From positions 868,001-932,000 of the forward strand of contig NZ_FXUE01000001.1 of assembly GCF_900182935.1 (NCBI RefSeq): 64,000 bases of DNA. Direction: 5' to 3'. This document shows, one piece after another, positions 11,320-35,015 of the stretch (within the stretch, counting starts at the first letter, position 1; each line of letters begins with the position of its first letter). The notes under the pieces are model-generated. The model saw only the letters and a program-made list of their open reading frames with translations. It ran no database searches and had not been told where the DNA came from. The stretch is from Fibrobacter sp. UWB10 (lineage in GTDB: Bacteria > Fibrobacterota > Fibrobacteria > Fibrobacterales > Fibrobacteraceae). A program made the translations under genes and the position numbers.

Positions 11320-11389
11320 AAATTAAAAAGGTATACCGAAAATGTCCAATACTATATCACTATGATTTGTTATAGGTTTTTATTATAAC
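11320..11389 (-). promoter_or_regulatory. Sulfur-regulon promoter and operator C
   Basis: A perfect inverted repeat GTTATA-N9-TATAAC (11369-11389), 19 bp to -35 TTGGAC (11344-11349), 18-bp spacer, -10 TAATTT (11320-11325). It drives the DUF4418 operon and lies 24 bp from operator D, which faces the opposite way. Confidence 0.75.
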
Positions 11390-11413: not shown

Positions 11414-11483
11414 CTTATAGAAAAAATCAATAATTCAGCATAAGAATTAAGTATTGGACGCTATCAAAAACCACATCTATATT
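11414..11483 (+). promoter_or_regulatory. Sulfur-regulon promoter and operator D
   Basis: Inverted-repeat-like site CTTATA-N9-AATAAT (11414-11434), 19 bp to -35 TTGGAC (11454-11459), 18-bp spacer, -10 TATATT (11478-11483). It drives MetY paralogue 2. The downstream half-site is the least conserved of the eight. Confidence 0.7.
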
Positions 11484-20927: not shown

Positions 20928-21008
20928 AAGATAGAATAAGATTTTCCCCCTGTCAAGCCATAAACGCATACTATTTAACTATTGTTTGCTATAGAATTTG
21001 ACTATAAC
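20928..21008 (-). promoter_or_regulatory. Sulfur-regulon promoter and operator H (metY-ADH operon)
   Basis: Inverted repeat at 20988-21008 (minus strand GTTATA-N9-TATAGC). Nineteen bp later comes the conserved GTA-ending segment, but the recognisable promoter is 12 bp further on: -35 TTGACA (20951-20956), 17-bp spacer, -10 TATCTT (20928-20933). The shifted, near-consensus -35 implies a different activation geometry from operators A-F. Confidence 0.65.
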
Positions 21009-31975: not shown

Positions 31976-32887
31976 TTACTCGTACAATCCTTTGCTAAAG
32001 TAGCGGTCGCCGCGGTCGGGGGCTACGAACACGATGTTTCCGCGGGCACCCGAGGCGATGAGCTTTTTGGCTGCGGTGAATGCTGCGCCCGAAGAGGAGC
32101 CTGCAATGAGTCCTTCTTTCTTGGCGAGTTCGCGAGCGCCGCCAAAAGCGTCGTCATCGTTAATCTTGATGACCTGATCCACAAGCGACATATCCATGGT
32201 GTCGGCGATAAAGTCATTGCCGATTCCTTCGATGTTGTAGTCGCCATGTTCGCCGCCGCCCATAGTAGAACCTACGGGGTCTGCGAGCACACCCTTGATG
32301 TTCGGATTGCGTTCCTTGAGCGCCTTGAGAATGCCGCTGAAGGTACCGCCACTTCCTGCGCCTGCCACCACGTAGTCGATTTGTCCGTCCAAATCTTCGT
32401 AGATTTCGGGGCCGGTGGTTTCGTAATGGGCCAGCGGGTTGGACATGTTGCGGAACTGCCTGAGCGAAACAGAGCCGGGAATTTGAGTCAAGAGTTCTTC
32501 GGCTTTCTTTTCGGCACCGAGCATGCCGTCTTCACGCGGGGTGTTGATGAGTTCTGCTCCGAGAGCGCGCATGAGCGTCTGCTTTTCTTGCGAGAACTTG
32601 GTGGGCACCACGAATATCACGCGGATGCCGCGGTTGAGGGCAGCGAAGGCGATGCCGAGGCCGGTGTTGCCTGCGGTTGCTTCGACAATGGTTCCACCCG
32701 GTTTCAGGAGACCCTTTTCAATCGCGTCGTTCACCATGTAAAGGCCGGTGCGGTCCTTCACGCTACCCGAGGGATTCCAGAGCTCGAGTTTGGCAAACAG
32801 GTTTACACCTTCGGGGAGTCCCACGTGCGTAAGCTTTACAAGCGGAGTCTTCCCGATTAAAGATTGCATTGATTCATAGTAATGCAT
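31976..32887 (-). CDS. Cysteine synthase / O-acetylserine-dependent cystathionine beta-synthase (MccA-like)
   Basis: PLP fold-type II enzyme (303 aa). IGKTPLVKL at the N-terminus, PLP lysine in WNPSGSVKDRTG (about residue 42), EATAGNTGLGIA, GAGSGGTFSG and a C-terminal GSSSGAAF. It resembles both CysK and MccA. Immediate coupling (1-nt gap) to a MccB-like gene favours MccA, which condenses homocysteine with O-acetylserine to cystathionine in reverse transsulfuration. CysK-type sulfhydrylation remains possible. GAAGGAAG precedes ATG 32887. Under operator G and the cysteine attenuator. Confidence 0.85.
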   Translation of the reverse strand: MHYYESMQSLIGKTPLVKLTHVGLPEGVNLFAKLELWNPSGSVKDRTGLYMVNDAIEKGLLKPGGTIVEATAGNTGLGIAFAALNRGIRVIFVVPTKFSQEKQTLMRALGAELINTPREDGMLGAEKKAEELLTQIPGSVSLRQFRNMSNPLAHYETTGPEIYEDLDGQIDYVVAGAGSGGTFSGILKALKERNPNIKGVLADPVGSTMGGGEHGDYNIEGIGNDFIADTMDMSLVDQVIKINDDDAFGGARELAKKEGLIAGSSSGAAFTAAKKLIASGARGNIVFVAPDRGDRYFSKGLYE

Positions 32888-32888
32888 A

Positions 32889-34049
32889 TTATGCTTCCTT
32901 CGCGGCGTTAATACCGGCGTTCAAATCCAAGATAATGTCATCGACTTTTTCGATACCTACAGACAAACGAATCAGTCCGTCGGTAATGCCCACCTTTTCA
33001 CGAATTTCCTTCGGAATAGAGGCATGGGTCATGGTAGCCGGATGGCAAACAAGGCTTTCGACGCCGCCCAAACTTTCGGCGAGAGAAATCAGCTGCAGGG
33101 CCTTGAAGAATTTCTTGATGTCGTAACCTTCGTACAGTTCGAACGAAATCATGGCGCCACCGTTCTTGGCCTGTTTCTTGTTGATTTCGTAACCCTGAGC
33201 GGTCGGAAGGCCCGGATAATAAACATGTTTCACGGCTTCGTGCTGTTCCAGGTAGCGGGCAATGCGTTCTGCGTTTTCGGTATGGCGATCGAGGCGCACA
33301 CCAAGAGTCTTGATACCGCGAATCAAGAGGAACGAATCGAAGGGGCCGAGCACTGCACCCACGGCATTCTGGTTGAATGCGAGACGATCGGCAATTTCCT
33401 TGTTGTTGGTCACTGCAAGGCCAGCCACCACGTCGCTATGGCCGCCCAGATACTTAGTCGCAGAATGCACCACGATGTCGGCGCCAAGTTCCAGCGGACG
33501 CTGCAAATAAGGAGTCATAAAGGTGTTATCAACAATGGTCAGAATTCCATGCTTCTTGGCGATGGCAGCAACACCTGCCAAATCCGTCACGGTCAGGAGC
33601 GGGTTTGCCGGGCTTTCGATAAAGAAGGCCTTCACATCAGGCGTCACCTTGGTATCGAGCGCTGCCAAATCGGTCGTATCTTCAATAGAATAGGTAATGC
33701 CGAGGTTCTTGAAAACTTTGTCCAGAACGCGGAAGGTACCGCCATAAACATTGCTAGAGATAATAATGCGGTCACCCTGCTTAAAAAGCGAAAGCACCGT
33801 AGAGGTTGCAGCCATGCCGCTACCGAAAGCAAAGCCTGCTACACCGCCTTCGAGGTCAGCAATCAGCGCTTCGAGCGCTGCACGCGTGGGGTTCCCCGTG
33901 CGGGAATATTCCCAACCGGTATTTTCGCCGAGACCCGCCTGCTTGTAGGTAGAAGTCTGGTAAATAGGAACGTTGACAGCACCCGTAACGCTATCGCCAT
34001 CGATACCACCGTGGATGAGTTTCGTTTCAATGTATTTTGAATTCGACAT
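32889..34049 (-). CDS. Cystathionine gamma-lyase/synthase (MccB-like)
   Basis: PLP enzyme of the Cys/Met family (386 aa). ETKLIHGGIDGDSVTGAVNV, YSRTGNPTRAALEALIADLE, YGGTFRVLDKV, VDNTFMTPYLQRP and PLP lysine in VVHSATKYLGGHSDVVAG. The short form without the MetY insertion and its ESLGGVESL motif fit cystathionine gamma-lyase or gamma-synthase. Paired with MccA it would split cystathionine into cysteine, 2-oxobutyrate and ammonia, moving sulfur from methionine to cysteine. Start ATG 34049 behind AAAGGA. Preceded by a Cys-rich leader peptide and terminator, so it is apparently attenuated by cysteine. Confidence 0.88.
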   Translation of the reverse strand: MSNSKYIETKLIHGGIDGDSVTGAVNVPIYQTSTYKQAGLGENTGWEYSRTGNPTRAALEALIADLEGGVAGFAFGSGMAATSTVLSLFKQGDRIIISSNVYGGTFRVLDKVFKNLGITYSIEDTTDLAALDTKVTPDVKAFFIESPANPLLTVTDLAGVAAIAKKHGILTIVDNTFMTPYLQRPLELGADIVVHSATKYLGGHSDVVAGLAVTNNKEIADRLAFNQNAVGAVLGPFDSFLLIRGIKTLGVRLDRHTENAERIARYLEQHEAVKHVYYPGLPTAQGYEINKKQAKNGGAMISFELYEGYDIKKFFKALQLISLAESLGGVESLVCHPATMTHASIPKEIREKVGITDGLIRLSVGIEKVDDIILDLNAGINAAKEA

Positions 34050-34097: not shown

Positions 34098-34132
34098 AAA
34101 AAATCCCGCTCCGGAGACAAAACCGAGCGGGA
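34098..34132 (-). terminator. Attenuator terminator in the mccBA leader
   Basis: Minus-strand stem TCCCGCTC/GAGCGGGA extended by two G-C pairs past a bulge, then ATTTTTTA (34098-34104). It lies 26 nt after the leader peptide stop and about 50 nt before mccB. Its 5' arm (CGCTCG, 34124-34129) can instead pair with CGGGCG in the last leader codons (34164-34169), giving an antiterminator. Confidence 0.8.
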
Positions 34133-34158
34133 ATCTGTTTTAGATAAAAGCCTAAAAA

Positions 34159-34221
34159 CTAGTCGCCCGTTCGACATCGACCCCAACAGCAACAACACAT
34201 GTTCATCAAGTTTTGAGTCAT
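34159..34221 (-). CDS. Cysteine leader peptide of the mccBA operon
   Basis: A 20-residue ORF, too short for usual gene calls: MTQNLMNM, then four consecutive Cys codons (TGT TGT TGC TGT, 34197-34186), then WGRC, RTGD, TAG. It lies about 25 nt into the predicted transcript, with AGGAAA upstream of its ATG (34221). Stalling of a ribosome at the Cys run would leave CGGGCG (34164-34169) free to pair with the terminator arm and permit read-through. With cysteine present, translation to the stop would mask it and let the terminator form. This is the logic of amino-acid attenuation. Confidence 0.8.
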   Translation of the reverse strand: MTQNLMNMCCCCWGRCRTGD

Positions 34222-34251
34222 TTCTTATTTTCCTATAATTTACGTAGGGAT

Positions 34252-34342
34252 AATATAGACAAAAACAATAACGCTGTCAACCAAAAATGGGTTATTTGGT
34301 TATACTATTTTTCTTTGGTTCGTTATAGGTTTTAGCTATAAG
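34252..34342 (-). promoter_or_regulatory. Sulfur-regulon promoter and operator G (mccBA operon)
   Basis: Inverted repeat at 34322-34342 (minus strand CTTATA-N9-TATAAC). The conserved GTA segment is 19 bp on, as at other sites, but the promoter lies further downstream: -35 TTGACA (34275-34280), 17-bp spacer, -10 TATATT (34252-34257). The displacement relative to operators A-F is 22 bp, two helical turns. Confidence 0.7.
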
Positions 34343-34343
34343 T

Positions 34344-35015
34344 CTAAAATTCGAGCCAGCCGGTGTCAAGGCCAGTCACAGGCACAATACGCTTCACATT
34401 CTTCTGCGCATCAGTAACCACGGCCATTCCCGTCAGGTAATTCATCCAGCGCTGAGGCGTAAAGGTCATCTTGCAAAAGTGCGTGAGGCACGGAACCACC
34501 CAGGCATCATGCGTTGCAAAAATGTTGAAACGACAATTTCCCTTTTCAAGCATCATCGAAAGCATCTCTTCGGAACGGGCAGGCAGCGGAGCAAAAGCTT
34601 CTTTATCGCCACGCGGGTTACCCTCAGCCTCATTCTTTAGCCATTCGCAAATGCCTTCGTAAAATCCGGCGCGCAACACCTTGGTATATTCATCGTAATC
34701 TTGAACAAAGTATTCCGCCAAGCAATCGAGCTTTTCGATATGCGGATTTTCAACGCCACGGCCCTTGCCTATGAATTCAGCCGTTTCGACACAGCGACCT
34801 ACCGGGCTTGAATAAAAGCAGATATCGCCTTCGGCAGGAATGCACTTACCCAGCGACAAAGCCTGCTCGCGTCCGCGCTCCGTAAGGCCAACATGCGCAC
34901 CGAAGTCAGGATCGTTGGGTGTAATATGGTTTCGTTCACCGTGACGCACCAACAGGAACACACGTTCGTCAGACGCAAGCGAAGCAAAGAAATCTACAGC
35001 GGGAGTAAAATCCAT
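34344..35015 (-). CDS. Histidine phosphatase (phosphoglycerate-mutase-like) family protein
   Basis: A 223-aa protein with the RHG motif VRHGERNHI near residue 23, GLTERGREQALSLGK, SSPVGRCVETAEF and the second catalytic His in FATHDAWVVP. The substrate is unknown; members include phosphatases for sugar phosphates and phospho-proteins. ATG 35015 (MDFTPAV) overlaps the PAP2 stop by 22 nt, suggesting coupled expression and perhaps action on lipid-linked or undecaprenyl phosphates. Confidence 0.85.
   Translation of the reverse strand: MDFTPAVDFFASLASDERVFLLVRHGERNHITPNDPDFGAHVGLTERGREQALSLGKCIPAEGDICFYSSPVGRCVETAEFIGKGRGVENPHIEKLDCLAEYFVQDYDEYTKVLRAGFYEGICEWLKNEAEGNPRGDKEAFAPLPARSEEMLSMMLEKGNCRFNIFATHDAWVVPCLTHFCKMTFTPQRWMNYLTGMAVVTDAQKNVKRIVPVTGLDTGWLEF

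Follow-up and report, generated by a model that had tools for sequence, protein, structure and literature searches.

A tandem-cysteine leader ahead of an mccB-mccA-like operon in Fibrobacter is very probably a cysteine-responsive transcription attenuator

Our study examined a 64 000 nt window from the genome of the rumen bacterium Fibrobacter (G000:C1:868001-932000), in which the minus strand carries, in order, a histidine-phosphatase-like gene (ending at 34344), an intergenic stretch and a two-gene operon resembling mccB-mccA. Near-identical mccB loci were found in named records, namely Fibrobacter sp. and F. succinogenes MAGs. The genes of the operon are:

32889..34049, minus strand: mccB-like gene, a Cys/Met PLP enzyme (PF01053), closest by sequence to cystathionine gamma-lyase/synthase
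31976..32887, minus strand: mccA-like gene, PALP family, of the cysteine synthase/cystathionine beta-synthase type, directly behind mccB

The designation mccBA-like and the predicted enzyme activities follow from sequence similarity. The genome additionally encodes a distinct cysK-like paralog (46 % identity) along with a serine acetyltransferase, and TIGR01704, the model for MTA/SAH nucleosidase, gave no match in this genome.

The intergenic stretch was found to hold a promoter and a short open reading frame, with the following parts:

34275..34280, minus strand: -35 hexamer TTGACA of the leader promoter, present in nearly all orthologs (TTGCCA in one clade)
34252..34257, minus strand: -10 hexamer TATATT of the same promoter
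34231..34234, minus strand: Shine-Dalgarno-like AGGA of the leader, 9 nt 5' of the ATG, TAGGA-like in most orthologs
34159..34221, minus strand: leader peptide ORF of 20 codons, MTQNLMNMCCCCWGRCRTGD, stop codon TAG; orthologs keep a leader
34186..34197, minus strand: Cys codons 9-12 (TGT TGT TGC TGT), the proposed stall site; each of the 51 orthologous leaders has two or more Cys codons in tandem

The promoter hexamers match the consensus at 11 of 12 positions, with a spacer of 17 nt. A fifth Cys codon lies at 34176-34174 on the minus strand, so that both the 20-codon ORF and the four Cys codons plus a fifth described by the sequence-only reading were confirmed. The Cys run is unremarkable by itself, as 0.12 runs of four tandem Cys codons are expected per window and Cys-run 12-mers number 34 in the genome versus 25 for the reversed pattern; it was therefore rejected as proof of an attenuator on its own.

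Folding of the RNA between the leader and mccB defined a terminator and two structures that compete for its upstream sequence:

34098..34132, minus strand: intrinsic terminator, arms 34132-34123 and 34114-34104, U run 34103-34098, supported by folding and found in all 51 orthologs
34166..34175, minus strand: antiterminator 5' strand GUCGAACGGG, inside the last leader codons
34122..34131, minus strand: antiterminator 3' strand CCCGCUCGGU, also the terminator 5' arm, pairing with 34175-34166
34152..34159, minus strand: upper antiterminator stem, 5' strand GUUUUUAG, from the minimum free energy fold of the antiterminator segment
34137..34143, minus strand: upper antiterminator stem, 3' strand CUAAAAC, from the same type of fold, pairing with GUUUUUAG
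34178..34182, minus strand: protector hairpin, 5' half GGUCG, from the minimum free energy fold of 34182-34098, pairing with 34165-34161
34161..34165, minus strand: protector hairpin, 3' half CGACU, from a minimum free energy fold

A free energy of -17.6 kcal/mol was obtained for the terminator fold (z -4.5), a value reached by 0 of 200 shuffles, which bears out the strong hairpin that had been placed at 34132-34098; a simple terminator scan missed it and RNA folding recovered it. Folding of the whole leader was uninformative (z -0.33). The conserved antiterminator register joins GUCGRRCGGG (34175-34166) to CCCGCUCGGY (34131-34122), with one A.C mismatch in this genome and its clade. CGGGCG (34169-34164) can pair with CGCUCG (34129-34124), as proposed from sequence alone, and in L032 and L039 this alternative is the better one; the register that folds and has the wider conservation is shifted from it by 2-3 nt. 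With no ribosome on the RNA, the folds predict that the GGUCG/CGACU protector masks the antiterminator strand and that the terminator forms; in a clade with CAUC on the 3' side of the protector, GAUG is usable instead, as judged by inspection. The fifth Cys codon adjoins and enters the antiterminator strand, so its retention is more likely due to the RNA structure than to a role in stalling.

In this genome alone the antiterminator was no better than chance (z +0.5), and its core-arm duplex was matched by 45 % of shuffles. As neither this pairing nor the Cys run exceeds chance on its own, the case for an attenuator rests on comparison. Our comparison within the genus covered 80 genomes, about 52 of which have a close mccB ortholog, and 51 upstream regions had enough sequence to be analysed. 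Every one of the 51 has an in-frame tandem-Cys leader, a conserved core and an intrinsic terminator. Loss of the Cys codons or the terminator in close relatives had been named beforehand as the observation that would speak against attenuation, and it was found in none of these regions. Across 34 distinct sequences, 89.6 % of cells were paired in the antiterminator register, compared to 23-54 % in slid controls. Covariation in the fixed antiterminator register did not exceed column shuffles in the same 34 sequences, and swapping core and arm between types revealed at most a slight advantage of native partners. Both results count against the pairing, and near-invariance of the core is their probable cause. 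For the terminator, 92.8 % of cells were paired, compared to 24-64 % when slid, and cells with both sides changed lay above all shuffles.

The strong U-run terminator that separates leader from gene in 51 of 51 regions also bears on the possibility that a stalled ribosome frees the mccB ribosome-binding site and termination plays no part. Such translation attenuation is reported for the cysteine-responsive polycysteine uORFs of mycobacteria, and is the mode of control described in M. smegmatis (Canestrari 2020, as cited in PMC13236596); the Fibrobacter leader ends some 110 nt upstream of mccB. However, translation attenuation needs no terminator, and the spacer that follows the terminator varies between clades; we consider it very unlikely here.

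The leaders range from 14 to 23 codons across the 51 orthologs, their N-terminal halves are unrelated between clades, and their Cys patterns comprise CCCC, CCFC, CCSC, CCVC, CCWC, CCWCCC and CCC. The core has a consensus like CGAUGUYGRnCGGGC. The first CC codon and the antiterminator are 10, 13, 16, 19 or 25 nt apart, and these shifts by whole codons imply that the reading frame is locked to the core. In all orthologs, the end of the leader stop codon and the start of the core are separated by 3, 9 or 21 nt. Where the ORF stops before or inside the core, as with TAA in L002 and TGA in the L009 group, the core is still kept, which is expected if the antiterminator strand needs to be covered by a ribosome at the stop codon. 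Conservation of the core as RNA even past the ORF stop would also suit a ligand- or protein-binding RNA, similar to a riboswitch, beside which a Cys-rich ORF is incidental. This would leave unexplained why the Cys codons hold their frame, with spacing altered in whole-codon steps, in a peptide that otherwise diverges. The T-box covariance model gave no match, no Rfam family reached the gathering level in the window, and relaxing the search to E values up to 1 added solely a sub-threshold match to an unrelated sRNA model. Leaders in Treponema and Parasporobacterium, considered below, share the Cys run, the complementary strand and the terminator without the core sequence, and a binding RNA is less likely again than translation attenuation.

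The variation in Cys number and context (CCCC, CCFC, CCVC, CCWCCC) is what codon counting predicts and not what a fixed metal motif would show. Copper-responsive Cys-rich leader peptides exist elsewhere, and a leader that senses metal or oxidative stress through its nascent peptide or thiol chemistry, and not Cys-tRNA, was weighed on that precedent. The target genes instead fit sulfur amino-acid metabolism and the geometry fits the position of a ribosome, making this the least likely of the three alternatives.

Some relatives lack the leader. One close ortholog, in G066, has none; the gene starts 198 nt from a contig end, where other sequence is found, and this may reflect rearrangement or mis-assembly. 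Distant mccB homologs (45-64 % identity) have no leader and lie in other contexts. The same is true of mccB orthologs in the sister genus g6 (86-90 % identity), which counts against the attenuator.

Taken together, we consider it very probable that the leader is a cysteine-responsive, ribosome-mediated transcription attenuator of the mccB-mccA-like operon. We infer that Cys-tRNA is the signal, that the ribosome stalls and that termination takes place in vivo. Under attenuation, RNA polymerase would initiate at the promoter (34280-34252) and a ribosome would translate the leader of 20 codons. If Cys-tRNA is plentiful, this ribosome would reach the stop codon and cover the antiterminator 5' strand (34175-34166), leaving the arm at 34131-34122 free, so that the terminator would form and transcription would end near 34098. 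With scarce Cys-tRNA, the ribosome would stall at the first Cys codons (34197-34186), and 34175-34166 would pair with 34131-34122 before the terminator 3' arm is made. The terminator would thus be prevented and the polymerase would proceed into mccB-mccA, the predicted products of which would make cysteine from homocysteine.

Simulation of ribosome positions was consistent with this scheme. For RNA made no further than the terminator loop and a ribosome stalled on the first Cys codon, antiterminator probability was above 0.5 in 49 of the 51 orthologs. When the ribosome was placed on the stop codon, the terminator formed, with a median of 0.91 across orthologs. When folding was taken to equilibrium with a stalled ribosome, the terminator still won in this genome (0.91) and in many others, which means that the switch must be kinetic and co-transcriptional, as in other attenuators.

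The element is not restricted to mccB. A covariance model of the element (R1), combined with patterns, revealed that the genome holds a second attenuator of related type 48 kb away and outside the window (G000:C1:854345-854260, minus strand), with leader MLPLIVEFCCKNGRC, core CGAUGUUGACGGGCG and a complementary CGCCCG arm. It precedes a gene for a SAM-dependent methyltransferase (TIGR00027, PF04072), which is followed by a serine-hydrolase gene. The attenuation of an mccBA-like operon proposed by the sequence-only reading is thus supported by conservation, but is not confined to mccBA. The U run of this second copy is poor in the clade of the window (GUUUCUUAU) and good in others. A further model, R2, detected the second-copy type in 21 genomes, which belong to a single genus. 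As a separate observation, its leader starts right after the stop codon of the upstream gene, as also seen in L092 and L123.

In one Fibrobacter clade, the methyltransferase gene and its attenuator lie directly upstream of the mccB attenuator. In L153, one intact Cys attenuator heads a methyltransferase-mccB-mccA cluster; a remnant of core and terminator before mccB (L153:1395-1483) has no Cys leader, which counts against attenuation there and appears to be a loss in progress. The element precedes genes for a methyltransferase, cysK and a PatB C-S lyase in G062, and G141, from another genus of the family, has leader MIRLCVCNCCIRCRTSD before a methyltransferase gene. Weak covariance model matches in G070:C5, G057:C14, G008:C18, G033, G107, G080 and G138 were inspected and set aside, as they resemble ordinary terminators and have no tandem-Cys leader.

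Our survey of 80 mccB relatives in public genomes allowed 63 non-Fibrobacter upstream regions to be scored by a fixed criterion, and Cys-leader/terminator pairs were present in 3 of them compared to 0 in 40 shuffled sets. The leader of a Ruminococcus MAG (L165) ends in SEKICCTCCCRC and a stop codon, and is accompanied by the same core and a terminator with other letters. By inspection, the core and the 5' arm of this terminator form 13 consecutive pairs (GUUGAACAGGCGG with CCGCUUGUUUAAC); this core-arm duplex reaches -23.0 kcal/mol, a value equalled by 0.03 % of shuffles. An Oscillospiraceae MAG (L208) has a core-like stretch, CGAUGUUGA, and a strong core-arm duplex, and in MAGs of Treponema (L163) and Parasporobacterium (L178) a Cys-rich leader is accompanied by a terminator and a complementary strand but no core. 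L224, with five Cys codons and a terminator, was rejected since no convincing antiterminator was found. These sequences are mostly MAG contigs, so binning errors are possible for the non-Fibrobacter cases. We put at about even the chance that cysteine attenuation of mccB recurs across three or more phyla of bacteria from rumen and gut (Fibrobacterota, Bacillota and Spirochaetota), having partly moved with the gene (Ruminococcus, Oscillospiraceae) and partly arisen independently (Treponema, Parasporobacterium), and that Fibrobacter has a small RNA-controlled cysteine regulon that includes the methyltransferase and, in one relative, cysK.

The trp, his and leu attenuators of enterobacteria have end-product codons in the leader, mutually exclusive antiterminator and terminator structures, and an antiterminator strand that coincides with the last part of the leader ORF. 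All three features are also found in the Fibrobacter leader, which differs in its Cys codons, its Fibrobacterota host and its reverse-transsulfuration-type genes. A leader ORF with a ribosome-binding site and clustered end-product codons is present in 51 of 51 regions, a terminator separates it from the first gene, and a ribosome that has reached the leader stop would cover the antiterminator 5' strand. An exclusive antiterminator just 3' of the stall codons was also found, and is weak when the clade of the window is taken alone.

Cys-leader attenuators are already known, and the Fibrobacterota mccBA case adds to them. The uORFC-8-2 element before cysS in Rhodobacterales combines a tandem-Cys uORF with predicted ribosome-mediated attenuation and an intrinsic terminator (PMC8632094). 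Compared by description, tandem Cys codons, predicted attenuation and a U-run terminator are shared with Fibrobacter, whereas uORFC-8-2 precedes a cysteinyl-tRNA synthetase gene in another phylum and has two stems, the first holding the Cys codons. The element described here lies in Fibrobacter before mccB-mccA-like and methyltransferase genes and has no Rfam match at the gathering level, which places it outside uORFC-8-2. Cys-rich leaders were predicted by Seliverstov et al. for mycobacterial cys operons, without terminators (PMC1262725), and are also given for P. acnes and the cbs gene of B. longum (PMC1262725; PMC13236596). These resemble the Fibrobacter leader in being short ORFs with a Cys run before cysteine-synthesis genes, but they lack a conserved terminator (PMC1262725). 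The Bacillus yrrT-mtnN-mccA-mccB operon, which is under CymR, leads from methionine to cysteine (PMC3519770). The same pathway is at issue in Fibrobacter, where a shared cysteine signal is likewise proposed to control mccAB together with a SAM-dependent methyltransferase, the methyltransferases being likened as SAM-dependent enzymes and not as one family; a protein repressor acts in Bacillus, in contrast to the RNA attenuator proposed for Fibrobacter. A literature search, thin on subscription journals, returned no report of leader-peptide attenuation in Fibrobacterota or for mccBA.

For Fibrobacterota, our study thus describes a cysteine attenuator with good support. The MccB/MccA-like enzymes and the linked methyltransferase are predicted to contribute to cysteine supply, and covariance models are provided together with an element of ~85 nt that is open to experiment. 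Recurrence in other rumen phyla would open the origin and spread of leader-peptide attenuators to direct study.

Further sequences were observed around the leader promoter. AAAAATAGTATAAC at 34299-34312 (minus strand) is present in most orthologous promoters, ~20 nt upstream of the -35 box, and is a possible activator site; the 13-mer AAAATAGTATAAC is unique within the genome to the leader promoter region. An inverted repeat CCTA/TAGG, CCTACGTAAATTATAGGA at 34231-34248 (minus strand), lies near the expected transcription start and overlaps the leader Shine-Dalgarno sequence. It is found in nearly all orthologs and also before the leaderless distant homologs L053, L054 and L056, and may be a 5'-end hairpin or an operator. 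Finally, a TATAG-N-CTATAA-like box, TATAGCTAAAACCTATAA at 34323-34340 (minus strand), recurs at 11370-11387, 11416-11433 and 20989-21006. The box at 34323-34340 is poorly kept at the same position among relatives. Such boxes are probably what the sequence-only reading called an operator and, with three mismatches allowed, they number 14 in the window compared to 1.4 in shuffled sequence.
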